Below are positions 5,701-25,424 of a DNA stretch of 25,424 nt, one piece after another. The position numbers were made by a program, and so were the translations under genes. Origin of the DNA: a virus; the IMG/VR virus record IMGVR_UViG_3300030943_000158, positions 1 through 25,424 of that record. One strand, 5' to 3'. Within the stretch, counting starts at the first letter, position 1. Every line of letters starts with the position of its first letter. Under the pieces are notes generated by a model. That model did no database searches. It saw only the letters and a program-made list of their open reading frames with translations, and was not told where the DNA came from.

Positions 5701-6606
5701 ATGCTGAAAAAAATTAGCGAGTATGATGTCGTCTATATCTCGTACGACGAACCGAACAAAGAACAACATTGGGCGCGAATCAAGCGTATGGTTCCGCACG
5801 CTCAACGCGTTGATGGTGTGACCGGCTTTGATGCTGCTCATAAAGCAGCTGCAGCACTTGCAACAACCGAACGTGTCGTCACCATTGATGGCGACAATGA
5901 ACTGCTTGACAACTTCATCACTATGGAGATCGATGATGAAGTTGTACCAAAAGATGCTGTCGTGTCCTGGTCATGTCGCAACCACATCAACAACCTAGTC
6001 TATGGCAATGGCGGTGTTAAGCTCTGGCCAGTACATGTGATCAACGAGATGCGAACTCATGAAGTCGCTGAGAGCGATCGTCTTAAACTCGACTTCTGCT
6101 GGGACCTTGATTACCTTCAACGCAACGAAGTTCTTTCAGTTGCTCGTCCTAATGGTTCACCATTGCAGGCTTTCAGAGCAGGTCTTCGCGAAGGCGTGAA
6201 GATGAGTTTGGTGAATGGTGCACTGATCAATGATCAACAAACCTTCAAACAACAACTCTTTCACCTCAACCTGCATCGTCTAAAGATCTGGATGTCGGTT
6301 GGTGCTGATGTGCAGCACGGTGACTGGGCCATCTATGGTTCAAGACTTGGTTTCTGGTTGGCGAACTTCGATGACTTTGACATTACGTTGATCAACGACT
6401 ACGAGTACATTCGTAAGATGTACAACGAGGCATTCTATGCGATCCGTGTGTGGGACAACTTGATGATTGAGATTGAAACTCTCGGTGAATCAATTGCACG
6501 AGCATCTGATCTCGAAGTAGAATACTTTGATTATTTGCAGAGTGCGCTGTTCAAATCTAAATTCTTCAATGGACCTAGAGTGGCCAACCCTAGACCGATC
6601 GTATAA
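5701..6606 (+). CDS. Putative GT-A-like glycosyltransferase family protein (301 aa)
   Basis: The N-terminal half has the pattern of a phage family that I associate with T4-like cyanophages and that is often annotated as a glycosyltransferase. It starts with a strand and YDEPN (15-19), then RVDGV and AHKAAA, then a DGDN motif (63-66) that resembles the DxD metal/nucleotide-sugar site of GT-A enzymes, and YGNGGVK (101-107). Later come LQAFRAGLREG and a final helical part. A 233-aa paralogue at 23202-23903 shares all these blocks. The gene opens the coupled radical SAM operon, with 9 bases to the next start. The enzyme class is inferred from motifs; no donor or acceptor can be named. It does not open with the PSYKR-like start I associate with the TET-associated glycosyltransferases, so I do not assign it to that family. 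Confidence 0.6.
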   Translation: MLKKISEYDVVYISYDEPNKEQHWARIKRMVPHAQRVDGVTGFDAAHKAAAALATTERVVTIDGDNELLDNFITMEIDDEVVPKDAVVSWSCRNHINNLVYGNGGVKLWPVHVINEMRTHEVAESDRLKLDFCWDLDYLQRNEVLSVARPNGSPLQAFRAGLREGVKMSLVNGALINDQQTFKQQLFHLNLHRLKIWMSVGADVQHGDWAIYGSRLGFWLANFDDFDITLINDYEYIRKMYNEAFYAIRVWDNLMIEIETLGESIARASDLEVEYFDYLQSALFKSKFFNGPRVANPRPIV

Positions 6607-6615
6607 GGAAAGACA

Positions 6616-7080
6616 ATGACAACTGGGAAACAAGTTACTGAGAACGATTTCAGACTTCCCGAGTTTCGGAACGCCAATATTGCCGACTATGAGTTCGATA
6701 GTACCGGTAAGCTTGTGAGAAAGGATCGTTGGAAACGAGCAGTTGAAACGATTCGGTACTACGTTGGCATTACCGATCGGACTTACGAAATCTATGATGT
6801 GATAACAGCTGCACGAAAATTATCGATTGACATCGACTGGACCTGGGTTGAAGAGATGGATGAAGGCGAAATCGTTCTCAACTACCCGGACGATAACGTG
6901 TACGTTGACGTGCTGTTGATTGATCGGTCAATCATTCGAGACGTTTTTTACAATCGCACAACGCAGATGTGGGTCTGGGACCCGGTTGCAAACTATCCGT
7001 TGACAGGCCTCAACTCAATAAATCTCGGCGGCGAGGTTCAAGCATGGCATAAAGCGCTGACTGAGCGGGAAGAAGGATGA
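6616..7080 (+). CDS. Conserved phage/bacterial hypothetical protein
   Basis: The protein is 154 aa. It opens with FRLPEFRNANIADYEFDS and KLVRKDRW, a start I recognise as recurring in small proteins of phages and bacteria without a known function. The rest is rich in aromatic and acidic residues, with no cysteine and no membrane segment. The start ATG 6616 follows a strong AAGGAAAG site right after the previous stop, and its own stop overlaps the next start (ATGA), so it is translated as part of the radical SAM operon. It could be an accessory factor, or the protein acted on by the operon's enzymes; nothing in the sequence decides this. Confidence 0.7.
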   Translation: MTTGKQVTENDFRLPEFRNANIADYEFDSTGKLVRKDRWKRAVETIRYYVGITDRTYEIYDVITAARKLSIDIDWTWVEEMDEGEIVLNYPDDNVYVDVLLIDRSIIRDVFYNRTTQMWVWDPVANYPLTGLNSINLGGEVQAWHKALTEREEG

Positions 7081-7727
7081 AGACTATCCAGCAGGTCAAT
7101 CAAGACGAGAGGTTCTCGACGAAGTTCGTACTCGACCTCGCTGAGACGGCTCGTAAGTATTCAGATGAGCGCATTCTTGACACGATGTACCGTGGACAAG
7201 TCGCAAGCAAGATCATGCTCATTCGTGCTCTCGAGCAACTCGACACCATTGCAAAACCAGTGGTACGCCGGCCACTCAATATTGCGATCTGTGGTGGTTG
7301 GTACGGTGTGCTGCCACGCATGATGATCGATCTTTCAACAGTGCTCGTACCGTGGTATGTACGAGTCATTGACAACGATCCGAATTGTTCCTGGCCAGCG
7401 GTATACCTCAACGAAGCACTGAACCCTCGTTCGTACAAGTTCCGATTCGATTGTCGTTCAATGCTCGAAACCCGGTACCTTGAAGACATGGTGATCAACA
7501 CATCACTCGAGCATCTTTCGACAGATGAGCTTGGTCGTTGGTTCGACCTCATTCAACCTGGTACGATCGTTGCAATGCAAGGGAACAGTTCAACAGAGCC
7601 AGACCATCCGAACCCGATCATGTCATTTGATGACTTTCCGAACAAGAACTTCGAAGAACTTCACCGTGACTCGTTGCTCATGTACAACGACAGCATTCGG
7701 CGCATGATCATTGGTGTGAAGAGATGA
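7077..7727 (+). CDS. Putative class I SAM-dependent methyltransferase
   Basis: The protein is 216 aa. After a helical N-terminus it has LNIAICGGWYGVLP (68-80), a motif I-like SAM loop, with an acidic residue (D99) at the end of the next strand. INTSLEHL (140-147) matches the 'NTS.EH' motif IV region of phage and bacterial class I methyltransferases. A strand in GTIVAMQGN follows. The length suits a single-domain enzyme. It overlaps both neighbours by ATGA and so is coupled to them. In this operon it may add a methyl group to, or otherwise process, the product of the radical SAM enzymes. No target-recognition domain is visible, which argues against a restriction-type DNA methyltransferase. The fold call is good; the substrate is unknown. 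Confidence 0.72.
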   Translation: MKTIQQVNQDERFSTKFVLDLAETARKYSDERILDTMYRGQVASKIMLIRALEQLDTIAKPVVRRPLNIAICGGWYGVLPRMMIDLSTVLVPWYVRVIDNDPNCSWPAVYLNEALNPRSYKFRFDCRSMLETRYLEDMVINTSLEHLSTDELGRWFDLIQPGTIVAMQGNSSTEPDHPNPIMSFDDFPNKNFEELHRDSLLMYNDSIRRMIIGVKR

Positions 7728-9199
7728 GCAACGTTGTTCTGATCGGTGGTACACAACTCGGTTCAAAGATCCCTGGTTGGACGAAACATGCAGCGATCTA
7801 TCGTCTTGGTGCAGTACTCGAACAGCGTGAAGTAGAGGTTCGGTACGTTGATCATTTCGAGATGACGACTGAAGCTGATCGTGAGAAAATCATTACTCTG
7901 ATCGACGATGACACAGTGTTTGTAGGAGTCTCTACTACGCTGCTCTCGTCGCCGTCAGGCGATCTGTTCGGAATTCCTGATGGTGCATTTCAGGTCTTCA
8001 TGCAACGCATTCTCTCGCTTAACGTATGCACTATTGTCGGTGGTGCAAGTGTGTACCGCGAGAACGATTCACTGCAGCGCTACGCACAGTACTTCGACTA
8101 TTTCGTTGAAGGTGATGGAGAGATTGCTATCGAGAAGGTGTACGACTCTGTTATGTGGGGTCTTACATTCGATGTTGATCGTGTGCATGGAATGAAGTTT
8201 GTTCGTAGCAAGCCATACACCGGCTTCAACCGCGATGTGCTCGTCACTCATGAAAAGGTTTTTGAACCTGAAGATACGCAGATCGTTGAGTTCTCTCGCG
8301 GTTGCATCTTCAGTTGCAGGTTCTGCAAGTACTCGATCAAGGACGGAGATGGTAAACGAATCTCTGAGAAGCCATCGAGTGACACGTTCATGTCGTATGA
8401 TGTGCTGCGAGAGTTGTTCATTACGAATCATGAACGCTTCGGTACGACCAATTACTTCTTCGCAGACAGCATCATCAATGACTCGTACGAGAAGGTCGAG
8501 ACACTCGCTCGCGCATTGACGAGTCTCCCATTCAAACCACAATTCGCTGCACACTGTCGTATTGAGTTCTTCAACAAGCATCCGGAGATGATGGTGATGT
8601 TGAAAGAGGCTGGAATGGTCTCAGCGAACTTTGGTATTGAAACGATGCACAGAGATGCCGGACTCAAAGTTGGGAAAGGTCTTGGTTGGCGTGCTGATGA
8701 CATGATGCGAAAGGTACGAGAAGGATTCAACGATGAGATCATCATCTCGTGTGGCTTCATTGTTGGACTTCCAGGAGAACCGATCGAGTCGATTGAGAAG
8801 ACTGTTGAGTACTTGATGAGTGCTGATTGTCCTGTCGACAGTGCGATACTGAATGCACTTATGGTTCAGCCTGAACGAGGTCGCAGCGATATGGATCGCA
8901 ATCCGATAAAGTATGGAATCAAAATCATTGATCGTACCTTCGAAACCGATATCATGTCCAAGGACGAGATCAATGCGCTGCGCAACAGATTGAATCGCAA
9001 ACTGCTTGCTGCAAAGCCGTACAACGACATCATCTCCCCGATGAACTTCTTCAAGTTGTTCTCACTCGGGTACACCATGAACGACGTGTTCTCATGGAGA
9101 GGTTGTACCGATACGACTGCACTTAGTGATATTATCGCGGACATTAGCGCCAAGGCAGAATGCAAGCGCAACACTTATTTTGAAAGGCTCGGAACATGA
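7724..9199 (+). CDS. B12-type radical SAM protein (491 aa)
   Basis: It has two domains. Residues 1-145 form a Rossmann-like region resembling the cobalamin-binding domain of class B radical SAM enzymes (IGGTQLG, VGVSTTLLSS, TIVGGASVY, FVEGDGE). No DxHxxG lower-ligand motif is present. Next comes the radical SAM core with C194, C198 and C201 binding the 4Fe-4S cluster (CIFSCRFC), followed by FFADSIIND, FGIETMHRD (the 'GxIxGxxE'-like part) and GFIVGLPGE. The layout is that of MiaB/Elp3-like B12-binding radical SAM proteins, many of which methylate or rearrange unactivated carbons. The next gene encodes a paralogue sharing PGWTKH and DHFE near the N-terminus. Start and stop both overlap neighbours by ATGA. 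The superfamily call is secure; true B12 binding is not shown. Confidence 0.88.
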   Translation: MSNVVLIGGTQLGSKIPGWTKHAAIYRLGAVLEQREVEVRYVDHFEMTTEADREKIITLIDDDTVFVGVSTTLLSSPSGDLFGIPDGAFQVFMQRILSLNVCTIVGGASVYRENDSLQRYAQYFDYFVEGDGEIAIEKVYDSVMWGLTFDVDRVHGMKFVRSKPYTGFNRDVLVTHEKVFEPEDTQIVEFSRGCIFSCRFCKYSIKDGDGKRISEKPSSDTFMSYDVLRELFITNHERFGTTNYFFADSIINDSYEKVETLARALTSLPFKPQFAAHCRIEFFNKHPEMMVMLKEAGMVSANFGIETMHRDAGLKVGKGLGWRADDMMRKVREGFNDEIIISCGFIVGLPGEPIESIEKTVEYLMSADCPVDSAILNALMVQPERGRSDMDRNPIKYGIKIIDRTFETDIMSKDEINALRNRLNRKLLAAKPYNDIISPMNFFKLFSLGYTMNDVFSWRGCTDTTALSDIIADISAKAECKRNTYFERLGT

Positions 9200-10716
9200 A
9201 CGTATTGTTCGTTGGTGGATACTTCAACAATCATCGTCACGACACTGATGTTCCGGGTTGGACGAAGCACCCTCAGAACTACAAGATCGCTGCGTACCTG
9301 AAAAAGAAGTTCGGTGCAAAGTGCTTTGTCATCGATCACTTTGAAGGGATTACGTACCCAACAGCGATTGCTGAGAACATCAAAGAACCGGTTGATATGG
9401 TCGTGGTCAACGCGAACTATCTCGAAGTTGACATGCGTTCGATGTTCGGCGATTCTGATGCAACATTCTTCAACTTCATGACTACGATTCATGCAAGCCA
9501 CCCGAATGCGGTGTTTGTGCTGTGTGGGTCTCGTGAAGTGTACCGTGAGAATCCGAACATTGACAAGTACGCACACGTGTTTGACTTCATTATCTACGGT
9601 CAAGAAGAGTATGGTGTTCCGGCGGTGTACCAATATGTCGACGGTATCGGACCATTGATGCCATACACGTCATTGGGTCGTACCAAGTGCATCGATGGCA
9701 ACGCCGAGTCCTGGTCGATCGACCCAGATGACATCGTGTTTCCGGATGGTCGTTACTTCACCGAGTACGATGTCGTACCGCTCGAGTTCTCGAAGAACTG
9801 CGTGTTCAACTGCAGCTTCTGTAAGTCAGCGACCTCGAAGAATCGTGAAGTGAACATGCCTCAAGCGAATGAGGACGAGTTTCGTCAGATGCTCATCGAC
9901 AATTTCGAGAAGTACAACATTCGTACGTACGTGTTCTACGATCGTCTCGTCAATGGTACACCTGACAAGGTACGAATGTTCAGACGAGTGACGAAAGATC
10001 TCCCGTTCAAGCCACAGTTCCTCGGTCATGCCCGCCTCGACCTGTTCGAGAAGTATCCATGGCAGATCGAGATGTTGCGAGACTCTGGCTTTGTTGCTTT
10101 CAACTTCGGCATCGAGACGTTCAATCGTCTTGCTGGTACACTCGTTGGTAAGCCACTCGGACTTGGTGCAATTGAACTCCTTCGTCAAGTGAAGAAAGTG
10201 TACGCTGATGCAGGCCAACATGTGTTCCTTAGCGGTACGATGATTGTTGGTTTGCCGGGCGAGAGTGTTGAGTCGCTTGAACGCATTCCGACAATCGTTT
10301 CGAAAAAGGATTTCCCACTCGATTCGGTCTCATTGTACCCTCTCGAGGTCGATAGATATAGACAACGAACTGACATCGAACAGAACCCGATGCACTATGG
10401 GATCACTTTTTCCGATGACGGCGAGTTCCACAACGGTATAATGTCAAGATCAGAGATGGTGACGCTCGCTGCACAGCTGAATGACGAGATCTGTAAGTCT
10501 CGCATGTTCAACAAACAGTTCTCGCAGCTTAGCTATCACAAGTTCTTCAACGTGGTGTTCAGAACGCCAGAGTTTACGGTACGACTCGCTAAGTCAAGAG
10601 ACACCGAAGAGAACAGAGACTTGAAAATTTTCATCAAACGCAGGTACACCGGAGTTGTCGATGATCTGATCGTCGCCTACTTTGACAAGCTTAAGGAAGG
10701 GATCACATTCGAATGA
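9196..10716 (+). CDS. B12-type radical SAM protein, paralogue (506 aa)
   Basis: This is a sister of the preceding gene: PGWTKH at 20-25, DHFEG near 47-51, GSREVYREN, then a radical SAM motif at C202, C206 and C209 (CVFNCSFC). FYDRLVNG, FGIETFNRLAG and GTMIVGLPGESVESLE follow in the same order as in its neighbour. The N-terminal 145 residues again resemble a B12-binding Rossmann domain without DxHxxG. A tail of about 60 residues after FSQLSYHKFF contains RRYTGVVDD and is probably outside the core. The product may act with the sister enzyme as a pair, since the two genes overlap by ATGA. Duplication followed by divergence is the simple explanation. The reaction is unknown. Confidence 0.88.
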   Translation: MNVLFVGGYFNNHRHDTDVPGWTKHPQNYKIAAYLKKKFGAKCFVIDHFEGITYPTAIAENIKEPVDMVVVNANYLEVDMRSMFGDSDATFFNFMTTIHASHPNAVFVLCGSREVYRENPNIDKYAHVFDFIIYGQEEYGVPAVYQYVDGIGPLMPYTSLGRTKCIDGNAESWSIDPDDIVFPDGRYFTEYDVVPLEFSKNCVFNCSFCKSATSKNREVNMPQANEDEFRQMLIDNFEKYNIRTYVFYDRLVNGTPDKVRMFRRVTKDLPFKPQFLGHARLDLFEKYPWQIEMLRDSGFVAFNFGIETFNRLAGTLVGKPLGLGAIELLRQVKKVYADAGQHVFLSGTMIVGLPGESVESLERIPTIVSKKDFPLDSVSLYPLEVDRYRQRTDIEQNPMHYGITFSDDGEFHNGIMSRSEMVTLAAQLNDEICKSRMFNKQFSQLSYHKFFNVVFRTPEFTVRLAKSRDTEENRDLKIFIKRRYTGVVDDLIVAYFDKLKEGITFE

Positions 10717-11498
10717 GCGACTTCTTCGTTCAGCCACAGAAAACAATGTATGACCTGGACGAGATTCGTGCAGCACTCTCCGAGGTCATGGAGAACCGTG
10801 GTGTCATCATCTCGAAGCCTGAGTCGAGACCGATGCACTACCCGAAGATTGTCACGATCAACCACTCTGAACCAGGGCTGGTGATTGGTAAAGTCGATGG
10901 CGTTCTCCCGGAGTTTCGCGGTACGATCTTCGAGGTGATCGCTGGTACGCAGGGTCCGATCGGAAACTTTCAGATTCGAGTCCTGAGTCAGGGCTGTGGG
11001 TACGTCGCTCATCGTGACCCGGATCCTCGTTCACATCTCGCAGTGTACAGTGATGAGCACTCGTACCTTGTCGACTGTGATACGAACCAGATGTTCAACG
11101 TTCCGATGGATGGCAGGCCGTACGTCCTGGACTCCACAGTGACGCACAGCGCCATCAACATCGGTCGGACTGAAAGATACCATCTGCTCTGGGCTCACTA
11201 CGTCTGTGATGATCCTGATGCAGCCGGTGTGAAGTACAGTTTCGAGATGAAGAACCGAGGCGAGTCTGTGATCTCCTGGCAGACGAGACACCTCAACAAG
11301 CTCCTCGTCAAGTACGGTCGTAAGATGAAGACGTTGTACGTCCATCCGACCGATGGAAAGCACGGTGATGACTCCCGTGTTGTCATTGCCGAGTTCATCT
11401 CGAGAGAGATTGCTCAGGACTTCGTGCTGGCGCTGCGTCTCGCAGTTTGTGCATACGGCGACAACATCCTCTTTGAGGAGAAACAAAATGAGATATGA
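10713..11498 (+). CDS. Aspartyl/asparaginyl beta-hydroxylase-like 2OG-Fe(II) oxygenase
   Basis: The protein is 261 aa. The region 86-160 reads as an Asp/Asn beta-hydroxylase-type jelly roll: GYVAHRD gives metal ligands H100 and D102, THSAIN gives H145, and RTERYH gives R155 for 2-oxoglutarate. The spacing between these residues is right for the family. The C-terminal 100 residues (from about 165) are less typical and may be a small separate domain. The enzyme would hydroxylate a carbon on a peptide side chain or a small molecule, using oxygen and 2OG. It sits between two radical SAM genes, overlapping the first by ATGA and the second by 11 bases, so it probably works on the same product. The motif is complete and activity is likely; the substrate is unknown. 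Confidence 0.78.
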   Translation: MSDFFVQPQKTMYDLDEIRAALSEVMENRGVIISKPESRPMHYPKIVTINHSEPGLVIGKVDGVLPEFRGTIFEVIAGTQGPIGNFQIRVLSQGCGYVAHRDPDPRSHLAVYSDEHSYLVDCDTNQMFNVPMDGRPYVLDSTVTHSAINIGRTERYHLLWAHYVCDDPDAAGVKYSFEMKNRGESVISWQTRHLNKLLVKYGRKMKTLYVHPTDGKHGDDSRVVIAEFISREIAQDFVLALRLAVCAYGDNILFEEKQNEI

Positions 11499-12561
11499 AG
11501 ACATCACGTCGATCGATCTTGAATTGACAAGCAGCTGTCAGGCTTCATGTCCTCAGTGTGCTCGCAACATTCGCGGAGGGTTGCCTAATCCTCTGCTTCC
11601 GATTCGTCAACTCAGTCTCGACGACATCAAGAAGATCCTCACTGTTGAAGACCTTCAACACCTGAAGAGTATCACGATCTGCGGGAACTATGGTGATGCG
11701 ATCGTTGCCAAGGACTGTCTCGCTATCGTCAACTACTTCAGACAGGCGAACAACACCATTCAGATCACGTTGCACACCAATGGGAGTGCACTCTGGAAAG
11801 AGTGGTGGGTCGTACTCGCTGAAACGATTGGTAAGTACGGTGACGTCAAGTTTGGCATCGACGGTCTCGCTGACACTCACTCGCTGTACCGTGTCGGTAC
11901 CGATTTCAACAAGATCATCGAGAACGCTAAAGCATTCATTGGTGCTGGTGGGCGTGCACACTGGGAGTTTATTGTGTTCGAGCACAATGAGCATCAGGTT
12001 GAAGAGTGTCGAGTGCTCGCTGCTGAATATGGATTTATGTCTTTCACAGCGAAGAAGACTCCTCGTTTCTTTCTGAGCAGCATCGGTAAGCATCAACCGC
12101 AACAACCAGTGTACTCAAGAGATGCACAGATCGTTCACTTCATTCGTGAACCGAAGAGCGAGAAGTATCGAAACAATGTCATCGAGCGTTGGAGAGATCT
12201 GACACCGAGACAGTTCGATAAGCATCTCGAGTCAACAGTGATCAGCTGTAAAGCGAAACAGCACAAGAGCGTGTTCATCGACTTCGACGGGATCGTGTAC
12301 CCGTGTTGCTGGATGGGTGCTCAACCGTACCTCGTCTCAAACCTTCTCGATTCGAATCAGTTCCTCGAGACATTCGTACCAGCCGATTGGCGCACTTGGT
12401 ACGACGGTCGTCGAGGTCTTCGTACCGTACTCAACGACACTGATTTGTTTCAGCGGTACGAGAACAATTGGAAGCTCAACAGTATCGAAGGAGGACTGTT
12501 GAGAATGTGCGCTCGTACCTGTGGTGCACAAGATCCTTTCACCGAGATGTTCAATCAATGA
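11488..12561 (+). CDS. Radical SAM/SPASM-type protein (357 aa)
   Basis: I chose ATG 11488 because GAGGAG stands just upstream; a longer reading from 11353 would run through the previous gene. The radical SAM motif is at the very N-terminus, C17, C21 and C24 (CQASCPQC), after a strand ending LELTSSC. The core continues with ITICGNYGDAI, LHTNGS and KFGIDGLADTH. The C-terminal third has C254, C273, C274 (YPCCW), C341 and C345, a pattern fitting a SPASM or twitch domain with auxiliary Fe-S ligands. SPASM enzymes usually modify peptides or proteins, sometimes sugars. This is the only member of the plus-strand operon with the auxiliary domain at the C-terminus. Its stop overlaps the next start (ATGA). 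Confidence 0.88.
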   Translation: MRYEDITSIDLELTSSCQASCPQCARNIRGGLPNPLLPIRQLSLDDIKKILTVEDLQHLKSITICGNYGDAIVAKDCLAIVNYFRQANNTIQITLHTNGSALWKEWWVVLAETIGKYGDVKFGIDGLADTHSLYRVGTDFNKIIENAKAFIGAGGRAHWEFIVFEHNEHQVEECRVLAAEYGFMSFTAKKTPRFFLSSIGKHQPQQPVYSRDAQIVHFIREPKSEKYRNNVIERWRDLTPRQFDKHLESTVISCKAKQHKSVFIDFDGIVYPCCWMGAQPYLVSNLLDSNQFLETFVPADWRTWYDGRRGLRTVLNDTDLFQRYENNWKLNSIEGGLLRMCARTCGAQDPFTEMFNQ

Positions 12562-13847
12562 AACACTTCTGCATTCTTCCATGGATTCACACTTCGGCAC
12601 GAGCTAATGGTTCGTTGAAGCTCTGTTGCAAGACTGAACGTTGCACTGTCGTCAAAGATGGTGGTGATCCACTGTACCCAACCGAGGAAACTGCGGTACT
12701 GATAGGACGAGATGACGTACGAATTGCAATGGATAACCAATACATGAACTCTATTCGTCATCGAATAATGAACGGTGAGCTCGTTGATGAGTGCAAGTCG
12801 TGCTTCATTGAAGAGCAAAGTGGTCAGCGTTCGAAGCGACAGGAAGAGAATGATGCATGGTCGCACCTCTATTCTCCGAGAACGATCAAGCAGAACAACA
12901 TCACGGCCTCTCTTGGGTTGCGAGACCTTGACATTCGTCTTGGGAATCGTTGCAATCTGAAGTGTGTGATGTGTGGTCCAACAGCGAGTTCGATGCATGT
13001 TCGTGAAGCGAACCAGATCGTTGCAGAAGGTCTCAGTGTTCCTGCACGGTATGAACGAGTGATGCAGTTCATGCCGAAGAATGGTGAAGTGTACGACTGG
13101 GTGAAGAGCTTCGCCTACAACGCGAACATCGGGGCTATGCTGTTGCAGGGTATCGAACGTCTTCATCTCTCTGGTGGAGAACCGACACTCAACGATGAGA
13201 TGTACCAGCTGCTTTCAAGATGCATCATGATCGGCTCTGCACCATTCATTGACATCACGATGAACACGAACCTGGCTAATCTTGACCATGAGCTGCTTGA
13301 CATGCTTCATGAGTTCAAGTCGGTGACGATTCACTTCAGCGTCGATGCGACCGATGCTCGTCGTTCACGGTACATTCGGTACCCACAGAACTTCGAGAAG
13401 TTTGATCAAAAGGTACAGGATCTTCTACGTCTGCCTGAGAAGTTTAAGCTCGGTGCAATCGTCACGTTCATGAACATCAACCTTCTCGACATCATCGACG
13501 TGTTCGAGTATGTTGAGTGTCTGAACTCAGTACGACGTGTTGACCTGTACCCGAACATGCTTTACGAGCCGTCGTACTATGCAATGAACGTTGCACCGAA
13601 CTCGTTGAAGAATGAGATTCGTGCAAACCTCTCGTACCATCAGTTGCAACGTGCACCGTCGATGAAGATCTTCTCGCACAACGACAACGAGCTCTATGGT
13701 GTTGTGTCTAATCTCATCAGAGCTATTGATCGTCCTTGTCTCGAACATGAAAAGAAGGATTTTGTCGATATCACCAAGACGTATGATAAAATCAGAAGTT
13801 GTGATTTCAAAGAAACGTTTCCGGAGTTTATTGAATGGTTTCGATAG
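12558..13847 (+). CDS. Twitch domain-containing radical SAM protein (429 aa)
   Basis: ATG 12558 overlaps the previous stop by ATGA. The N-terminus carries the auxiliary cluster region first: FCILPWIH (C5), KLCCKTE (C23, C24) and CKSC (C79, C82). This is the layout that NCBI calls 'twitch domain-containing radical SAM protein', with the twitch ahead of the core. The core motif is C132, C136 and C139 (RCNLKCVMC) in LDIRLGNRC. LSGGEPTLND, the SAM-contacting GGE motif, and FSVDATDARR follow. It ends ETFPEFIEWF, an ending shared with its paralogues. The protein probably carries two Fe-S clusters. The gene overlaps the next one by 13 bases. The family is secure; the substrate is unknown. Confidence 0.9.
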   Translation: MKHFCILPWIHTSARANGSLKLCCKTERCTVVKDGGDPLYPTEETAVLIGRDDVRIAMDNQYMNSIRHRIMNGELVDECKSCFIEEQSGQRSKRQEENDAWSHLYSPRTIKQNNITASLGLRDLDIRLGNRCNLKCVMCGPTASSMHVREANQIVAEGLSVPARYERVMQFMPKNGEVYDWVKSFAYNANIGAMLLQGIERLHLSGGEPTLNDEMYQLLSRCIMIGSAPFIDITMNTNLANLDHELLDMLHEFKSVTIHFSVDATDARRSRYIRYPQNFEKFDQKVQDLLRLPEKFKLGAIVTFMNINLLDIIDVFEYVECLNSVRRVDLYPNMLYEPSYYAMNVAPNSLKNEIRANLSYHQLQRAPSMKIFSHNDNELYGVVSNLIRAIDRPCLEHEKKDFVDITKTYDKIRSCDFKETFPEFIEWFR

Positions 13848-15244
13848 AAGCTGAACTGAAAGAGCGACTACTTCGTTTCGATACTCTGGTGTCGAAGACG
13901 TTCTGCATTCTGCCGTGGATTCACTTATCAACTCGTCCGAACGGCGAGATGCGTCTATGTTGCAGCGCAAATGCTTCAGCGATCAAGAAGAACGACGACA
14001 CGTACCTACGAGAGCAGGTTGGTGTGTTGAAGAACCCGGATGGTTCTCCTGCCAATCTGAACTCAACTGATCTGCTTGATGCATGGAACAACGAGTTCAT
14101 GCGTTCGGTACGAGTTGCAATGCTCAATGGTGAGGTACCGACGAGCTGCACCAAGTGCTTCATCGAGGAGAAGAACAAGATCGTCTCGAAGCGCATTTGG
14201 GAGATGTACCATTGGGGACAACAACTCGACATCGAGAAGCTTGCTGCTGAAACAGCGAGTGATGGTACCGTTGACCCGAAGATTTACTACCTCGACATTC
14301 GTCTCGGGAACCTGTGCAATCTGAAGTGTGTGATGTGCAGTCCGCATGACTCGAGTGCCTGGACACCTGAGTGGAAGAAGATCAAGCTCGTGACGAAGAG
14401 TGAGGCTGTGAAAGGCTATGTCGATGGTTGGATGAACGCTTTCGCTGGTGAGGACGGGAACTATCGTTGGCATGAGAACGAGAACTTTCTCAATCGACTG
14501 TACGAGCAGGTTCCACACATCAAGCAACTGTACTTTGCTGGTGGTGAACCGTTCCTGATCAAGGAGCATTTCGCTGTTCTCGAGAAGTGTATCGAGATGG
14601 GGCAAGCGTCTCACATTGAGGTACGATACAACACGAACCTCACAGTGTTGCCACCACGTTTGTTCGAACTGTGGAAGCACTTCAAGTCGGTGAAGGTGAC
14701 ATGCTCGATCGATGCATACGGTGAGCGTGACGAGTACATTCGTCACCCGACAGAGTGGGACACCATCGAGAAGAATCTGAACATCCTCGAGAACTGTGAG
14801 CATCTGCCGAACCTGACTGTGACGCTTGCTTGCTGCGTCAGTCTACTCAATGTCTGGCACTTCCCAGACTTCATTCGCTGGAAGCTCAGAAAAGACTACA
14901 AGCGCATCAACGCGTGGCCTAATGGCGCGGGGTTGGTGAACTTCCATCTCGTTTATTTCCCGCCATTCCTGAACGTTCGTGTGCTTCCTGCGTCATTCAA
15001 GGCTGAGGTCACCGAGCGTTTCAACGTACTGATCAACGAGCTTCGTGAGGATCCTCCGTTTGAAGGCTTCCTTGATCACCCTTACGGGATCGTTCGTCTC
15101 GAAGGTTTGGTCAAGTACATGAACGAAGAGGACTGGAGCAATCGTTTCGATCAATGTCTCGAGTTCATTCGAGCATCCGACGAGGCTCGTGGTACAGACA
15201 TCATCAAAGCATTGCCAGAACTCAAACAACTTTTCCAACAATAA
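13835..15244 (+). CDS. Twitch domain-containing radical SAM protein, paralogue (469 aa)
   Basis: It has the same architecture as the preceding gene, with a 20-residue helical extension. Twitch cysteines are C24 (FCILPWIH), C42 and C43 (LCCSAN), and C105 and C108 (CTKC). The radical SAM motif is C161, C165 and C168 (LCNLKCVMC). The GGEP motif is in YFAGGEPFL, and the later CSIDAYGERDEY matches the sister protein. The start ATG 13835 has GGAG 8 bases upstream. The two are clear products of duplication, kept next to each other. This gene ends the tightly overlapped stretch; the next gene starts 18 bases later with its own strong ribosome-binding site. Confidence 0.9.
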   Translation: MVSIEAELKERLLRFDTLVSKTFCILPWIHLSTRPNGEMRLCCSANASAIKKNDDTYLREQVGVLKNPDGSPANLNSTDLLDAWNNEFMRSVRVAMLNGEVPTSCTKCFIEEKNKIVSKRIWEMYHWGQQLDIEKLAAETASDGTVDPKIYYLDIRLGNLCNLKCVMCSPHDSSAWTPEWKKIKLVTKSEAVKGYVDGWMNAFAGEDGNYRWHENENFLNRLYEQVPHIKQLYFAGGEPFLIKEHFAVLEKCIEMGQASHIEVRYNTNLTVLPPRLFELWKHFKSVKVTCSIDAYGERDEYIRHPTEWDTIEKNLNILENCEHLPNLTVTLACCVSLLNVWHFPDFIRWKLRKDYKRINAWPNGAGLVNFHLVYFPPFLNVRVLPASFKAEVTERFNVLINELREDPPFEGFLDHPYGIVRLEGLVKYMNEEDWSNRFDQCLEFIRASDEARGTDIIKALPELKQLFQQ

Positions 15245-15262: not shown

Positions 15263-15649
15263 ATGAAACTGATCATTGGTAAACCGGTCGCTCGTTCCAA
15301 CCCAAAGAACGTCTATGTACTCACGATCACTCACATGCACGGTGACGCTGATGCGTATAGTGAGTCGACCCGTTCAACGTCTGACCCATACAGCGGCATT
15401 GTTTCGCTATGTGATCTGATCAAGGTCATCGAGGACTTTGGAAGTGATTGCCAGTTCTTTTACTCGAGTGAGTACCGTGAAGAAGTGTTGAAGCAAGCTG
15501 GCTTCTCGGATGAGTTCATTAACAACATCACCGACTACATGGAAGGCGACTGTACCAACGATGGCAACACCATGGCAATGTTCGACGGGTACGATCTCGT
15601 TTACTTTGATGCCGATGGTGTTGAGCATGAAGTGACTGTGGAACAATAA
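15263..15649 (+). CDS. Hypothetical protein (128 aa)
   Basis: This acidic protein has N-terminal strands (NVYVLTITHMHGDAD), a Ser/Thr-rich linker, a helical middle (GIVSLCDLIKVIEDF) and an acidic end (FDGYDLVYFDADG). I recognise no family. The HMHGDAD segment is reminiscent of a metallo-hydrolase motif (HxHxD), but the protein is much too short for that fold and the remaining ligands are missing. AAGGAAG precedes the ATG 15263 at good spacing. It begins a run of short genes after the radical SAM operon and may share its transcript. Confidence 0.65.
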   Translation: MKLIIGKPVARSNPKNVYVLTITHMHGDADAYSESTRSTSDPYSGIVSLCDLIKVIEDFGSDCQFFYSSEYREEVLKQAGFSDEFINNITDYMEGDCTNDGNTMAMFDGYDLVYFDADGVEHEVTVEQ

Positions 15650-15651
15650 GC

Positions 15652-15900
15652 ATGGAAGTCACCAGAAAAGTGACACTGGAAGCATTTGATGCTTGCTGGT
15701 GTCCGGCATGTGGGAAGGCTGTTGTGATGGAACGATTGCCGACAGGTCTTCCGGGAATATTAGCGCAGAAGTGTGTTGAGTGCAGTACTTTTTATCAAGC
15801 TAACTATCCGGAAGATGAAGACGATATTCTTACTGTTCCGGATAATTTTGTTATGGTTGGCTGGATTGGAGCGAATGGCAATGAACAAAACAGATCGTAA
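15652..15900 (+). CDS. Small zinc-ribbon protein (82 aa)
   Basis: Cysteine pairs CWCPAC and CVEC, about 25 residues apart, make a compact zinc-ribbon-like knuckle. The rest is acidic (EDEDDI) and ends in a short hydrophobic stretch. Starting 2 bases after the previous stop, it is co-translated with its neighbours. Small zinc ribbons in phages often bind nucleic acid or a polymerase, but no specific role can be claimed. The next gene starts inside its last codons. Confidence 0.65.
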   Translation: MEVTRKVTLEAFDACWCPACGKAVVMERLPTGLPGILAQKCVECSTFYQANYPEDEDDILTVPDNFVMVGWIGANGNEQNRS

Positions 15901-16171
15901 GATTCGTCGTGCTGCTCGTGATGGTGTCTACCTCTATCGTTCAGATGATGGTACATCGTACGACATCATCGATACAGCAGGTCCTCGTGATCAGCGGTTG
16001 ACAAAACGTGCTGCTGCGAACTTCGCGTACCATGTCTCGCAACGCCGGCCGACGTTGAAGATGTACGGCTTCTCGACTGTAGATAACAAGTGGCACCGAG
16101 CAGGCTGCGAGATGATCACGCCGAAGTACTTCAACCCGAAGCCATGTGACTGTAAGTACCTCGTCGTTTGA
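15881..16171 (+). CDS. Small basic hypothetical protein (96 aa)
   Basis: I prefer ATG 15881, which has GGAG 9 bases upstream, over ATG 15875. It overlaps the zinc-ribbon gene by 20 bases. The protein is basic (TDRKIRRAARDG, QRLTKRAAANF) and ends with CEMITPKYFNPKPCDCKY, a possible metal-binding end with three cysteines. No family is recognised. The basic character would suit nucleic-acid binding, which is inference only. Confidence 0.6.
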   Translation: MNKTDRKIRRAARDGVYLYRSDDGTSYDIIDTAGPRDQRLTKRAAANFAYHVSQRRPTLKMYGFSTVDNKWHRAGCEMITPKYFNPKPCDCKYLVV

Positions 16172-16177
16172 TGTAAC

Positions 16178-16185
16178 CATAAATA
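16178..16185 (+). promoter_or_regulatory. T4-type late promoter
   Basis: CATAAATA lies 34 bases before the ATG at 16219 in a 47-base gap. It would start a new late transcript for the genes running to 17557. Confidence 0.65.
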
Positions 16186-16218
16186 AAGCTGACCACGTTT
16201 ATTAAAAGGTAAGCAACC

Positions 16219-16578
16219 ATGCTAGTCAAAACAACCAGAACCGGATGGTTCCCGTCACAGTCCTCATTCGAGAAGTTTGTTGAGCACGCAACGAACACGA
16301 TTCTACAATCGAACAAGAACCCGAAACCTCTCGGTTGGTGGTTCAAGCACAAGTCTGATGAAGATGGTTACTGTGTCGAGACGCTGATGATCTTCATGGA
16401 TCGCGATGTTCTCACTGCATTCAATGCGAGTGGCGCTGCTCAACTTGTCAAGTCATTCACCAAGACTCTTGAAGTCGTTTGGACTGACGACCTCATCACT
16501 GATGCTCCACAGATTATCGACGAAACCAAGATCGATGACTATGTGAGTCCCGTTTCAGGTTACACCAAGCTGTACTAA
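16219..16578 (+). CDS. Hypothetical protein (119 aa)
   Basis: No family is recognised. The protein starts MLVKTTRTGWFPSQSSFEKF, has a Trp-rich turn (PLGWWFKHK), a central helix (AAQLVKSFTKTLEVVW) and an acidic stretch, with no membrane segment. The ribosome-binding site AAAAGGT precedes the ATG, and a late promoter is just upstream. It ends 9 bases before the next gene, with which it is probably co-transcribed. Confidence 0.65.
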   Translation: MLVKTTRTGWFPSQSSFEKFVEHATNTILQSNKNPKPLGWWFKHKSDEDGYCVETLMIFMDRDVLTAFNASGAAQLVKSFTKTLEVVWTDDLITDAPQIIDETKIDDYVSPVSGYTKLY

Positions 16579-17598: not shown

Positions 17599-19722
17599 AT
17601 GACACTTCCTGTAAGTGGAGCAATCTCACTCAACCAGGTTGAAGTAGAGCTGACGTATGTGGCTGGCAGTACTATTTCGATGAATGATGCTGCAGTCCGA
17701 GCATTGACTGGCATTGCGAGTGGTGCAATCTCCTTCGACAATCTCTTTGGAAAGACCTTCGCTGCAGGTGTCGGTACGACATGGGTAGCGCAGCCAGGTT
17801 TGAATACTGCAACGCCAAATGCAGTGTTCAACAGCATTGCTTGGTCTGGTACCAAGTTCGTGGCTGCAGGTGGTGATTACACGGGTTCGTACTGTGCAAC
17901 GTCTCCTGATGGCGTGATCTGGACCAATCAAGCAAGTCTTAGAACAGTTTTCGGTGCTGGGAACCTTGTTTATAAAGTCATCTGGAACGGTGCCAAGTTC
18001 CTGGCGATCGGTGGTAATGGTGGTACCGCGTGTAAGTGTGCAACATCCACAGACGGCATTACCTGGGCCGCGCAGGCTAGCTTGCCGACCGTGATCGGTG
18101 CAGCCAACATGTTCAGCGTCTGCTGGACTGGTACACAGTTCGTTGCGGTTGGTGGTAACACGAACACAATGGTTGCGAAGTGTGCAACATCACCTGATGG
18201 TGTGACATGGACTGCTCGTGCTGGTTTGGCAACAGCAGTCGGAGCCACTTCAAATGCGTACGATGTGGCATGGAACGGGACGAGACTCGTTGCAACTGTC
18301 AACAACCAACGTATCGCGTATTCTGCTGACGGCATTACCTGGACCAAAGTGACTACTAATGCTCTCTCTTCGTCAAATATCGTTTGGACCGGGGCCCAGT
18401 TTGTCATCACTGGTCTGATCGGTCAGACACCAACGTCCTTCAACAGCTACTGCAGTGTCGTGACCTCGCCTGATGGTATCACATGGACGAATCGTCGAAC
18501 CGAGACCGATTACAACATCTCGTATGGTGGTGTCTGTTGGTCTGGGACTCAGCTGATGGTGATTGGTAACAGCTACTGTCTTTCTTCTCCTGACGGTATC
18601 ACCTGGACTGTTCAAAACAGTCTTGGCTCCGGCGCTCCAGGCTCTTACAATAGCGTCTGCTGGACCGGCGCGAAGTTTGTTGCTGTCGGTTATGGCGTCT
18701 GTGCAACAAGCAGTGTTGTGCCATGGTCTAGTGGTGCTTGGACTAACAGAACTTCTACCCTTACTACATTGTTTGGTTCTGGTCAGAGTATCAACACAGT
18801 GAAATGGAATGGCTGGAATTTTGTAGCGCTTGGTGGAACCTTTGGTTCTGCTGGCCGATTGGCCGTGTCAACAAATGGCACAGATTGGACAAATAGCAAT
18901 ATGCCGAGTCTGCCATCGGACGCATTGACTGTGACTTGTTCCAACGGCCTCAAGCAAATCGCAAGTGGATACAATGGTTCGTTCTTCTCTTCACTAGATG
19001 GTGTGACTTGGTCGGCTCTTCCTGCTGCTGCAGTGCCTTGGTACACAACCTCGTTCACGTATTTCACTGTATACGATATGGTCTGGATCGGCACGAAGTT
19101 CGTGGCAGTTGGGAGCGGGTCGACTACGGTTGGTGGTTGTGCCACTTCTCCTGACGGTGTGACCTGGACTCGTCAAGCTGGCCTCTCCACCGCTATGACC
19201 TCTGGCACTGCGAAAGCTGCAGCGTGGAACGGGTCGATACTGGTAGTGGTTGGCAATATCCCAACAGGCGCTTCTGGATGTGCAACATCTCCGGATGGCG
19301 TGACCTGGACGAGCCGCACTGGTTTGGCAGCACTGACCGCTGGCAACTCGGCTCAGCGTACCTTCCAAGATGTTGTTTGGACCGGTACGAAGTTCGTTGT
19401 TGTTGGAGACGATGCTAACACCGGCGTTGGTGGTTTCTGTGCAACGTCGCCAGACGGTATCACGTGGACCAAGCAAGCCGGCTTCCCGGCAGGCGCTGGG
19501 ATGCAACTCGTCTGGACTGGTTCATTGCTCGTGGCAATTGGTGCTAACAAGGCTATGGCTACTTCTCCAGACGGTATCACATGGACAGCGTCTACTTCGC
19601 TGTCGACAAGCATCAACGATACAAACGTTCAAGCTAGTACCATGGCTTCGAACGGTTCGTCATTAGTTGTCATTGGAACCAACACAACAACTGCAGCTCC
19701 GGTGTACTTCACCTCGCCATGA
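17599..19722 (+). CDS. Asp-box repeat (beta-propeller-like) tail adhesin
   Basis: The protein is 707 aa. The first 57 residues (MTLPVSGAISLNQV, then NDAAVRALTGIASGAISFDNLFGK) match the N-terminal domain shared by many phage structural and adhesin proteins. The rest is about 13 repeats of around 50 residues, each with a strand pair like WTGTKFVAVG and an Asp-box-like turn (S-P-D-G-V/I-T-W-T), found for example at codons near 19137, 19278 and 19446. Two repeats in the middle are degenerate. Repeated Asp-boxes mark beta-propeller blades, as in sialidases and BNR proteins, but no sialidase catalytic residues are evident, so binding rather than cutting is likely. It is preceded by a late promoter and followed by a strong terminator, so it is a single-gene unit. 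A broken paralogue follows directly. The role as a tail-tip or fibre adhesin is inferred. Confidence 0.8.
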   Translation: MTLPVSGAISLNQVEVELTYVAGSTISMNDAAVRALTGIASGAISFDNLFGKTFAAGVGTTWVAQPGLNTATPNAVFNSIAWSGTKFVAAGGDYTGSYCATSPDGVIWTNQASLRTVFGAGNLVYKVIWNGAKFLAIGGNGGTACKCATSTDGITWAAQASLPTVIGAANMFSVCWTGTQFVAVGGNTNTMVAKCATSPDGVTWTARAGLATAVGATSNAYDVAWNGTRLVATVNNQRIAYSADGITWTKVTTNALSSSNIVWTGAQFVITGLIGQTPTSFNSYCSVVTSPDGITWTNRRTETDYNISYGGVCWSGTQLMVIGNSYCLSSPDGITWTVQNSLGSGAPGSYNSVCWTGAKFVAVGYGVCATSSVVPWSSGAWTNRTSTLTTLFGSGQSINTVKWNGWNFVALGGTFGSAGRLAVSTNGTDWTNSNMPSLPSDALTVTCSNGLKQIASGYNGSFFSSLDGVTWSALPAAAVPWYTTSFTYFTVYDMVWIGTKFVAVGSGSTTVGGCATSPDGVTWTRQAGLSTAMTSGTAKAAAWNGSILVVVGNIPTGASGCATSPDGVTWTSRTGLAALTAGNSAQRTFQDVVWTGTKFVVVGDDANTGVGGFCATSPDGITWTKQAGFPAGAGMQLVWTGSLLVAIGANKAMATSPDGITWTASTSLSTSINDTNVQASTMASNGSSLVVIGTNTTTAAPVYFTSP
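17860..19620 (+). repeat. About 13 Asp-box-type coding repeats
   Basis: DNA units of about 150 bases carry the recurring string TGCAACATCTCCxGAxGGxGTGACxTGGAC with variation. The third-position differences between units indicate old duplications under selection, with a few near-identical pairs. Recombination between units could swap blades. Confidence 0.75.
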
Positions 19723-19796: not shown

Positions 19797-19821
19797 CTAC
19801 CTTATTAAATGGAGTATTTTT

Positions 19822-20098
19822 ATGACACTACCAGCAAGCGGGGCGCCAACCAACACTAGCTTCTGCAGTTGGTAATGCCACACAGAATGCGGTAGCATGG
19901 AGTGGATCCGTTTTAGTGTCTGTAGGATATAATGGAACTTGCGCAACATCTCCAGATGGAGTGACTTGGACTGCCTCAACAACACTATCTTCAACGATTG
20001 ACTCAACTATCTCGCCAGGATCACTCTCAACCAATGGAGCGGTACTTACACTTGCATGTTATGGGCCAACCACTGATGTTTTCCTCACCTCGCCGTAA
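19822..20098 (+). pseudogene. Truncated, frameshifted copy of the Asp-box adhesin
   Basis: The start MTLPASGA copies the beginning of the intact adhesin, with its promoter and ribosome-binding site, but this frame stops at the TAA 19873-19875 after 17 codons. The following frame (+1) continues without a stop to 20098 as a last adhesin repeat: AVGNATQNAVAWSGS, then CATSPDGVTWTAS and an end VFLTSP that matches the FTSP end of the intact protein. So about 2 kb of middle sequence is missing and the two parts meet out of frame near 19840-19850. It may be a deletion remnant or a recombination reservoir for the last blade. A +1 programmed frameshift making a 92-residue protein is possible but has no visible slippery site. 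A sequencing error at the run of four G cannot be excluded. Confidence 0.7.
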
Positions 20099-20140: not shown

Positions 20141-20144
20141 TTTG

Positions 20145-20363: not shown

Positions 20364-20412
20364 TTGATCACCTCAAGATGGTTCCAGAATCCAAGCTGAC
20401 GTGATCAGTATA

Positions 20413-20895: not shown

Positions 20896-20903
20896 GATTT
20901 TTC

Positions 20904-23205: not shown

Positions 23206-23903
23206 ACCTTGAACCTTATTCCGTCGAAGACGTCCTTGATAAAGTCGAAGTCATTGATCTTCGCGAACATCTTGTCATCAGTTGAGTAGGCTCTTGCGTA
23301 GTGCGCACCAGCTTGTGCACCAGCCATACATTCACCGGCATATGGAGCATTATGTTGGGCATCGGTGCACCATACGTTCAGACGACGAAGTTCGTCAGAG
23401 CCGCGTACCTTGCTCATCGGCAATCCAAGAATCTTCTTCGTAAGCTTTGCTGCCTCACGAAATCCAGCTCGATAAGCCTGAAGAGCTGTGGTATTGATCA
23501 CAGTCCACGAGGCAATCTCCTCGTGAATCTTGGAGGCCGCTACAGTAGTCGCGAAGTCGATGTACTCGATAGGTTTGTCGAAGTGGGATTTGTTGAAGAT
23601 CTTCACTCCACCATTGCCATACTGAAGACGATTCACCGAGTTGATGCTTCGGAAGATGTGGACATACTGCTCGTCATGTTTGTTCGGTGTGTACTCAAAC
23701 CAGAACTGATCGGCGATGTCATTGTCACCATCGACCACATAGAAGCAGTTCGTGTCAGCTAGTTCAGCAGCTGCTTTATGCGCCTCCTGAATGCCCTTAA
23801 CACCATCCACTCTCTTCGCGAATTTGAATCGCCCTTTAAGCTTCTTCCAGTTGCGTTCAGCGTTCGGTTCCCCGAACGTGATCATCACAATATCAAGTGC
23901 CAT
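23202..23903 (-). CDS. Putative GT-A-like glycosyltransferase family protein (233 aa)
   Basis: Paralogue of the 301-aa protein at 5701-6606. Shared blocks in the same order are an N-terminal strand with GEPN (11-14), RVDGVKG and AHKAAAELA, DGDN (58-61), YGNGGVK (95-101), LQAYRAGFREAAK and a final tryptophan-containing helix. This copy is shorter, lacking the long C-terminal extension. DGDN may bind a metal and nucleotide-sugar as in GT-A enzymes, though this is inference. It overlaps the preceding radical SAM gene by 11 bases and the next by 4, so it is strictly co-translated with two twitch radical SAM proteins. Finding one member in each radical SAM operon links the families functionally. 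Confidence 0.62.
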   Translation of the reverse strand: MALDIVMITFGEPNAERNWKKLKGRFKFAKRVDGVKGIQEAHKAAAELADTNCFYVVDGDNDIADQFWFEYTPNKHDEQYVHIFRSINSVNRLQYGNGGVKIFNKSHFDKPIEYIDFATTVAASKIHEEIASWTVINTTALQAYRAGFREAAKLTKKILGLPMSKVRGSDELRRLNVWCTDAQHNAPYAGECMAGAQAGAHYARAYSTDDKMFAKINDFDFIKDVFDGIRFKV

Positions 23904-25281
23904 AGTTCTTCAACAGCTCCAGTGAGTTGTACCAATCAGCGAGTTCTGGGAACGTCGCAATGAAGTTTTTGTTTCGTCTGACATCATACTGCATGTAGAA
24001 CGATTTGAAATCGTTTTCGATGATCTGCACCGGTTGTTGAGAAGCATACTGCGGATTCTCAACATTCCGAAGGTAGCTGACGACTCGAGAAATCTGGTCG
24101 AGCTCGTGATCCTGCAGTGCAGGCTTATCATCGTAGTTCGGGATGAGACCGTTGTCGATTGTCCAGGACTCGAGCTCTGAGGCAAATTTGTTGCGCAGCT
24201 CCTTCGGCAAGACCAGGACATTTTGGAAGTTCGGGAAGCGGAGAATATTCAGTGACAAACTCGGTCGCGACCCATACTTCACCTTGAGACGCATGATGTC
24301 ATCGAGGAAGCGAGTCAGAGACGGAAGACTGAGGACATTGATCGTCATCATGATGCACACCTGCTTGGCGTTGCCATGGACAATCATTCGTTCGAGGTTC
24401 TCGTACCATTTGAAGTAATCGAGTCCATCTCGAGTGTACTCAGCTGCAGCACCGTACGCCTCACATGAGGTGTACAGATGAAAGTTCTTCACGTGCTGCG
24501 CAGCCTCAACAAGACGATCGATCAGTTCTTGTTTTGCACCGAGGTTCGAGTTCACTGCAAAGCGCATAGCACTCGGATTCTCACGGAACCAGGTGAAAAG
24601 CTTCCACACTTCGGAACTCATTAAAGGTTCGCCGCCGGTGATCCGGAGCTCTTCGAGATTTGTAGACAGTTCAGGCCACCATCGCCAGAAGGCATCGATG
24701 TACGGATTGAATTCGCCAGGTTTGAAAGGCTCTGCACGTTCAGCGAGAGTGACGAAGTGACCACGGGCATCTGAACGGATATTCTCGTAGAACCCGTTCT
24801 GCTTGAGATCCTTTACCCATGTAGTGGAGAACATTGGATTGCAGTATGAGCAGGCAAAGTTGCACGTACGATCGAAGCTGATCTCAAGGGTCTTGAGCAT
24901 CACATCAGCCTGCGGGTCAAGATGCTGCAGGGCGGCGACGTCAGAGTCCTCGTAGATCTGTGTTTTGTGTACACGGTCCGAGATGAACTCAGGCCCCATG
25001 TCTTCGATCTTCCAGCAGTACTCACACTCAGCTGGTCGTTCACCATCCAGCATCAGCTCACGGTTCCATTTCTTTATTTCGGTGTTGTGGATCGCGGATG
25101 GGTTGTGTTTGATTTCTTCGAGATTGATCTGGTGCGCAGATGGGTGATGGCAGCTGACAGTCGAACCATGACCGAGCCAAATTGTCGCGTTGTACCACTT
25201 GGCCGCGCAGAATGACGGAGAGATCGAGTTGATCTTCAGGTCACGGTATTCTTTAGCACTAAGAAATTTTATTGACTTCAC
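23893..25281 (-). CDS. Twitch domain-containing radical SAM protein, variant (462 aa)
   Basis: The start is a GTG at 25281; no ATG lies near the N-terminus, and GGTGG is just upstream. The N-terminal domain has the twitch layout but with changed ligands: C25 (FCAAKW), then C44 followed by HH where the relatives have CC, then CEYC (C86, C89). The core motif C140, C144 and C147 (TCNFACSYC) is intact, with ITGGEPLMSSEV after it. The end (ATFPELADWYNSLELL) agrees with the other family members. The altered cysteine pair may mean a different auxiliary cluster with His ligation, or fewer ligands. It overlaps the upstream gene end by 23 bases and the next gene by 11. Confidence 0.87.
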   Translation of the reverse strand: MKSIKFLSAKEYRDLKINSISPSFCAAKWYNATIWLGHGSTVSCHHPSAHQINLEEIKHNPSAIHNTEIKKWNRELMLDGERPAECEYCWKIEDMGPEFISDRVHKTQIYEDSDVAALQHLDPQADVMLKTLEISFDRTCNFACSYCNPMFSTTWVKDLKQNGFYENIRSDARGHFVTLAERAEPFKPGEFNPYIDAFWRWWPELSTNLEELRITGGEPLMSSEVWKLFTWFRENPSAMRFAVNSNLGAKQELIDRLVEAAQHVKNFHLYTSCEAYGAAAEYTRDGLDYFKWYENLERMIVHGNAKQVCIMMTINVLSLPSLTRFLDDIMRLKVKYGSRPSLSLNILRFPNFQNVLVLPKELRNKFASELESWTIDNGLIPNYDDKPALQDHELDQISRVVSYLRNVENPQYASQQPVQIIENDFKSFYMQYDVRRNKNFIATFPELADWYNSLELLKNYGT

Positions 25282-25424
25282 TATTCCACCATTCTAATAC
25301 TCTAGGGCTGCGAGATACAACATCAACAAAACGATGTTGCGCTCCACCTGAACGTTTCATTTTATCAAATTCGAGGATCGTCTTGACATACTTAGTTAAT
25401 GCTTTTTTCGACGGTGGGATATAG
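25259..25424 (-). CDS. C-terminal end of a probable further radical SAM protein (partial)
   Basis: Only the last 54 codons lie in the window; the gene continues past the right edge. The readable end includes KYVKTILEFDKMKR and SRSPRVLEWWNSEV. This matches the way the twitch radical SAM neighbours finish (an acidic-aromatic helix, Asp-Lys/Met, then a turn and an EW/DWYNS-like end). The cysteines cannot be seen, so the family call rests on that C-terminal similarity and on the operon position, overlapping the next gene by 23 bases. Confidence 0.5.
   Translation of the reverse strand, partial: YIPPSKKALTKYVKTILEFDKMKRSGGAQHRFVDVVSRSPRVLEWWNSEVNKIS

Follow-up and report, generated by a model that had tools for sequence, protein, structure and literature searches.

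IMG/VR virus record IMGVR_UViG_3300030943_000158, a fragment whose 25,424 bases were analysed in full (hereafter the window), carries eight radical S-adenosylmethionine (SAM) enzyme genes in two tightly packed runs, one on each strand. The plus run (5701-15244) comprises nine genes that overlap by 4-13 nt, with a single 9-nt gap after the first; in order, they encode a GT-A-like (glycosyltransferase-type) protein, G (5701-6606); a 154-amino-acid protein with no named function (6616-7080), for which no close relatives were found among the loci compared below; a Rossmann-like, methyltransferase-type protein, M (7077-7727); two radical SAM proteins with B12-like N-termini, B12a (7724-9199) and B12b (9196-10716); a 2-oxoglutarate (2OG)/Fe(II) aspartyl-type beta-hydroxylase (10713-11498); a SPASM-like radical SAM protein, R2 (11488-12561); and the twitch-type radical SAM proteins C (12558-13847) and D (13835-15244). 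The minus run (25281-20904) has four genes overlapping by 4-11 nt: twitch A (TwA; 25281-23893), the signature enzyme of the cassette described below, a second, short-form GT-A-like protein (23903-23202), twitch B (23205-21925) and R1, a radical SAM protein of STM4011-like type (21935-20904). Related genes recur as a cassette beside tail-fibre genes in many environmental T4-like giant phages, where they probably form a pathway that decorates the virus particle.

The preliminary description of this DNA had reported eight complete radical SAM enzymes in two runs; indeed, PF04055 matched all eight genes in a genome search (E 4.7e-17 to 8e-7), six of them above the Pfam cut-off, and the CX3CX2C motif is intact in every one. 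Individual PF04055 matches include R1 (9.9e-15), B12a (1e-12), B12b (3.8e-8) and R2 (1.1e-6, just below the cut-off). The genes starting at 12558, 13835, 21935, 23205 and 25281 keep a GGEP motif; R2 carries GNYGD in its place, and B12a and B12b have no GGEP, an element whose GGE is often absent from other B12-type radical SAM enzymes. Twitch A, B, C and D score 288-413 bits against NF033640, the model for twitch-domain radical SAM proteins (curated cut-off 170 bits; E 1.9e-92, 1.2e-88, 8.4e-86 and 9.9e-124, respectively), and each keeps four twitch cysteines ahead of the core (C-x17/18-C...CxxC), as expected from the four twitch-before-core enzymes described earlier; twitch B also matches SPASM (2.8e-10). 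Additional C-terminal cysteines in R2 and R1 agree with the two cysteine-rich C-termini of that description. Its probable ninth enzyme, at the contig edge, did not hold up: the final 143 bases of the window hold an open 54-codon stub without significant resemblance to the neighbouring radical SAM family (0.1 bits). Chance would not yield eight full-length enzymes that all keep their motifs; they are different enzymes with predicted radical chemistry.

The partner enzymes and the B12-like pair were harder to place. B12a scores 57 bits against a B12-radical SAM NCBIfam model with a cut-off of 360, and B12b, its paralogue (35% identity), scores a similarly sub-threshold 16 bits or so against such models; since Pfam's B12-binding domain matched neither protein, the proposed B12-type N-termini stay candidates for B12 binding. 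The M family is conserved, with a Rossmann-like GGWYG...D pattern, and has homologues in 12 of the compared loci, several of them between radical SAM genes; M had no Pfam match and its family profile found no credible match among PDB sequences, leaving the methyltransferase assignment putative. The oxygenase call was sound: the 10713-11498 product matches Cpz10, the 2OG beta-hydroxylase of caprazamycin synthesis (7v4f, E 1.7e-9), along with a sub-threshold PF05118 match.

For the two proteins proposed as glycosyltransferases, no glycosyltransferase family was matched by sequence, either in Pfam or with a G-family profile against PDB sequences. The AlphaFold2 model of G (predicted local distance difference test, pLDDT, 92) nevertheless resembles GT-A folds over residues 1-150 with Z up to 10.8: B4GALNT1 (10.8 over 142 residues), a Leptospira glycosyltransferase (10.6), ThuS (9.8) and a PBCV-1 capsid-glycosylating enzyme (8.7). 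The nucleotidyltransferases MobA and IspD, which share a GT-A-like fold, also match (Z about 9), and the best Foldseek hit has E 1.5e-3, with none below 0.001. D63 and D65 of the DGDN (DXD) motif are invariant in an alignment of 51 G members. The GT-A-like assignment thus has fold-level support for 5701-6606 and support from homology for 23903-23202; we infer sugar transfer by G-type proteins.

To place these genes in context, we compared relatives from IMG/VR. Twitch D retrieved 14 contigs, each with 3-6 radical SAM domains; twitch A was aligned with nine orthologues (35-38% identity), and IMG/VR was searched anew, giving at least 587 confirmed places with relatives of this gene, which is at most 55% identical in other phages. 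We kept 80 of these, for a comparison set of 94 viral loci in total. Since resemblance to twitch A or D was the basis of selection, all counts describe that group; contig ends truncate many loci, making cassette gene counts lower bounds.

The loci show a typical gene order: a tail fibre (F), a GYGQ/GWGQ-motif protein (Y), a 115-amino-acid protein (s), two GT-like proteins (g), a small gene (x), the homologue of window genes 5701 and 23202 (G), the twitch array, n, an SGNH-like protein (L) and a carbamoyltransferase (C). G was found in 85 of the 94 loci, g in 81, s in 71, Y in 64, F in 57, C in 41 and L in 29, and in 77 a twitch gene follows within three genes of G. Twitch open reading frames average 4.5 per locus (range 2-9); across whole records, all 38 cassette-bearing records have 3-16 NF033640 matches each, and none of 14 control genomes has one above the cut-off. 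The T4-type major capsid gene gp23 occurs in 20 of the 38 records and was not found in the 25,424-base fragment that forms the window. A-type Fe-S carriers, present in 11 of 38 records and in 9 of the 12 exceeding 160 kb, are supportive, not decisive. In four loci (L031, L036, L038 and L044), kin of both window runs (R1, M, R2, twitch D, G and twitch A, in part) lie in a single run, for which reason the two window runs look like one split module. The R1 family is present in 17 loci (46% identity to L031, L036 and L030), relatives of R2 in 11 (37-39% identity for the best three), and twitch D is 46% identical to its L031 counterpart.

The twitch arrays are not products of recent tandem duplication. 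Best matches lie in another locus for 404 of 407 twitch copies, which rules out such duplication and indicates that each array brings together old subfamilies that have been maintained separately; median identity is 80% to copies in other loci and 30% within the same array. Core and twitch cysteines are intact in all 398 full-length copies, and GGEP too in 392; one copy in each locus was retrieved with a motif pattern and is biased towards intactness, the remaining copies being unbiased. In L010-L017 and L019-L022, the second gene of the array fuses two twitch radical SAM units into a protein of about 820 amino acids. A neighbourhood kept in 94 loci, diverged paralogues and intact cysteines together give good support to the dedicated multistep modification pathway envisaged in the preliminary description, and we predict a working multistep pathway with high confidence. 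That description had named loss of Fe-S residues and lack of a conserved neighbourhood as arguments against such a pathway; we found neither, the B12-like pair and the 2OG gene being without relatives of their own.

What this pathway acts on is less direct. The AlphaFold2 model of twitch A (pLDDT 90) lies nearest to SkfB (14.0), BlsE (13.9), DesII (13.2) and MoaA (12.9), with SuiB, a sactipeptide maturase and anSME also among the nearest folds; because peptide, nucleoside, sugar and GTP enzymes score close together, the fold does not name the substrate. Twitch and SPASM enzymes often act on peptides. The matches to SkfB, SuiB, the sactipeptide maturase and anSME would suit a scheme in which the radical SAM enzymes alter tail-protein side chains or backbone directly, as do maturases of sulfatases or of ribosomally synthesized and post-translationally modified peptides, and in which the GT-like genes are separate; so would the tail neighbours, including the conserved GYGQ/GWGQ protein directly downstream of the fibre. 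We consider this scheme somewhat unlikely: BlsE, DesII and MoaA fit twitch A about equally well, GT-like genes travel with the array in 85 of 94 loci, and no precursor-like gene was seen, the twitch-twitch gap being at most 20 bases in 240 of 251 cases, which leaves no room for precursor peptides between these genes.

The claim in the preliminary description that no phage system of this content had been described was too strong; multi-radical SAM phages were already known, and what appears to be new here is the common cassette architecture and its synteny with tail genes. The Campylobacter phages CP220 and CPt10, described in 2010, are reported to have 11 and 12 radical SAM proteins, five of them in a swappable module (Timms 2010, PMC2853527); our own recount for CP220 gave 11. 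These phages are T4-related and, like the cassette loci, combine radical SAM genes with genes of sugar-transferase type: in the CP220 module, five radical SAM genes stand with an amidinotransferase gene and two genes for nucleotide-diphospho-sugar transferases, close to the genes for baseplate lysozyme and PAAR. CPT_0081 is kin to the R1 family, CPT_0080, CPT_0083 and CPT_0084 to the R2 family, and CPT_0086 to an amidinotransferase-like gene near four IMG/VR cassettes that is absent from the window (in L047, 18289-19308 on the minus strand). CP220 differs in having no twitch radical SAM protein above the NF033640 cut-off and in sugar-transferase genes without a BLAST match to those of the cassette.

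Other likenesses are looser or come from descriptions. The uncultivated T4-like TARA_ERS488813_N000010 has 12 radical SAM genes and an Fe-S carrier gene (Nishimura 2017, PMC5332604), and the likeness is by that reported count, not by sequence, gene order or radical SAM type. Aeromonas phage 332-Vera (2025) has eight radical SAM genes inside a structural cluster with tail fibres (PMC12390700); it belongs to the Chimallinviridae and is not T4-like, and is likened by description rather than sequence. A pelagimyophage paper places radical SAM cassettes in a variable region (PMC7029224). Vibrio phages K566 and K567 (OZ196521, OZ196593) are isolated phages in which twitch-type radical SAM genes are interleaved with glycosyltransferase-type genes: K566 has four, interleaved with a GT8 gene (Pfam, above cut-off) and a weak GT4-like gene. 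Their twitch genes are only about 25% identical to ours, two being above the NF033640 cut-off, and tblastn found no TwA or G homologue in them. The literature on phage twitch radical SAM proteins or tail modification, in a search that left bioRxiv and most subscription papers outside its scope, gave only radical SAM counts or mentions, and the portions of the cited papers available to us assign no function to these gene sets.

The authors of the CP220 study suggested that the host gains metabolically (PMC2853527). A pathway that remodels a host surface glycan or host metabolite, for instance against superinfection, would accord with this suggestion, with the carbamoyltransferase, epimerase and sugar dehydrogenase near the cassette, and with the existence of phages with lipopolysaccharide-type gene clusters (PMC3037559). 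The related cassettes do include an epimerase, a UDP-sugar dehydrogenase and a cytidylyltransferase, yet neither a flippase nor a polymerase or ligase for envelope glycans was recognised in them, a simple hydropathy scan predicted a transmembrane segment in just 9 of 1219 cassette genes, with no recurring membrane family among the nine, and the linkage of the cassette to tail genes is fixed; we regard host-glycan remodelling as unlikely.

Radical SAM and glycosyltransferase genes can also serve phage DNA hypermodification. In L016, as in several T4-like contigs, the cassette has a QueE-like gene (15548-16399, minus strand, in L016) some 4-5 kb away, which would suit a hypermodified DNA base as the product. 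No nucleotide-synthesis gene was recognised by the window's radical SAM genes, the linkage is to tail genes, and amidinotransferase and carbamoyltransferase neighbours are atypical of base modification, making this product highly improbable. The preliminary description had left the substrate list open; tail linkage and the scarcity of membrane proteins tentatively point towards virion proteins rather than DNA bases or envelope glycans of the host.

The nearness of the 2OG enzyme to caprazamycin Cpz10, together with the BlsE and DesII folds and sub-threshold viperin matches, raises a further prospect: a small molecule that diffuses, perhaps an analogue of a nucleotide or a compound resembling an antibiotic, and acts on the host, rival phages or defences. 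The best viperin score among the window's radical SAM proteins is 44 bits against an NCBIfam cut-off of 180; we rejected a viperin or antiviral reading, as these matches reflect the generic radical SAM core. As a small molecule would also leave the tail synteny unexplained and no export genes were recognised, we judge it very unlikely.

Searches outside the cassette group returned little. With the proteins of window genes 7724, 23202, 23893, 5701 and 20904 and two cassette proteins from relatives as queries, tblastn had no match in 50,697 phage records. Exact short patterns from B12a, B12b, an alignment of the pair and the 2OG gene brought up no relative in IMG/VR, although distant kin may escape such patterns; the L094 cassette holds a distant B12-like radical SAM gene. 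As the B12 pair, the 2OG gene and 6616-7080 are without close relatives, the plus run seems to add tailoring steps that are missing from most of the group. A bacterial source was considered and rejected: full-length TwA homologues (35-46% identity) were found only in four Bdellovibrionia-type metagenome-assembled genomes (L103, L104, L105 and L106, one labelled Bacteriovoracales), which have no phage cassette. In L103, two TwA homologues stand in tandem with an R1-like gene nearby.

The window's own tail fibre (1823-4774, minus strand) lies to the left of the plus run; it has a C-terminal S74 intramolecular chaperone (PF13884, 2.6e-12; PHROG tail fibre), and its N-terminus matches the fibre gene that precedes cassettes in other phages, making it both a neighbour and a candidate substrate. 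It is flanked by 4778-5212 (minus), a protein with two predicted membrane segments, and 1495-1809 (minus), a weak Rz-like spanin match; the two are perhaps a lysis pair. Between the runs, a protein with SPDGxTW (Asp-box-like) repeats and an N-terminus in a PHROG without assigned function (17599-19722, plus) is a speculative second substrate candidate, followed by a short related stretch (about 19816-20098, plus; MTLPASGA...) whose reading frame is broken and which seems to be a disrupted or alternative version of the repeat gene. At the left edge, 2-721 (plus) encodes a retropepsin-type aspartyl protease domain (DTGAD; Pfam Zn_protease and Asp_protease_2 matches), unusual in a phage and possibly a prohead or maturation protease, and 772-1401 (plus) a further 2OG-Fe(II) oxygenase-like protein with a weak PHROG match.

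Our working proposal, which we hold tentatively, is that a cytosolic pathway assembles a glycan-like group, tailors it and thereby decorates tail or adhesin proteins. Few transmembrane genes, no envelope-glycan genes and tight twitch spacing lead us to take the enzymes as a soluble pathway with a virion-protein acceptor, and the linkage to tail fibres suggests tail proteins for that role. Soluble enzymes would build a sugar-derived group, with G-type proteins transferring the sugar, and then tailor it by radical chemistry: each twitch enzyme would carry out a C-H step of its own, be it oxidation, epimerisation, deoxygenation or the formation of a C-C or C-S bond, the B12-like enzymes and M would supply methyl groups, the 2OG enzyme would hydroxylate, and in relatives the carbamoyltransferase would cap the product. 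The finished product would be carried by the tail or adhesins of the particle, where its benefit would probably be receptor binding or masking.

In favour of decoration stand the cassette order with a tail fibre (57 of 94 loci), the GT-A-like fold with its invariant DXD, sugar-type enzymes in related cassettes, the pairing of radical SAM and sugar-transferase genes in K566 and CP220, the scarcity of transmembrane genes (9 of 1219) and the distinct, old paralogues with 398 of 398 intact twitch copies. Several points weigh against it: the tail and adhesin proteins are putative acceptors; position near tail genes may mirror no more than the timing of expression; no sequence family is matched by the GT-like proteins, which have Foldseek E above 0.001 and share their fold with nucleotidyltransferases; peptide enzymes are effectively tied with sugar and nucleoside enzymes as the closest folds of twitch A; the window, as a fragment record, has no Y, s, g or carbamoyltransferase genes; and short-pattern scans of IMG/VR found no relatives of its B12-like and 2OG genes.

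Radical SAM-rich phages were noted from 2010 to 2025, with neither function nor shared architecture given in the papers found; a fixed gene order beside tail fibres now provides a concrete hypothesis, which isolated Vibrio phages with related genes make testable. It is conceivable, if slightly more doubtful than the decoration proposal, that this is a widespread, so far unrecognised virion-decoration system in which the non-redundant twitch radical SAM enzymes of a syntenic cassette tailor a glycan-type group on the tail adhesins of many uncultivated T4-like giant phages. If so, its product would be a radical-modified virion glycoprotein, a kind not described so far, and such changes to the tail adhesins would matter for host range, for the ecology of phages and for enzyme chemistry of a new type.

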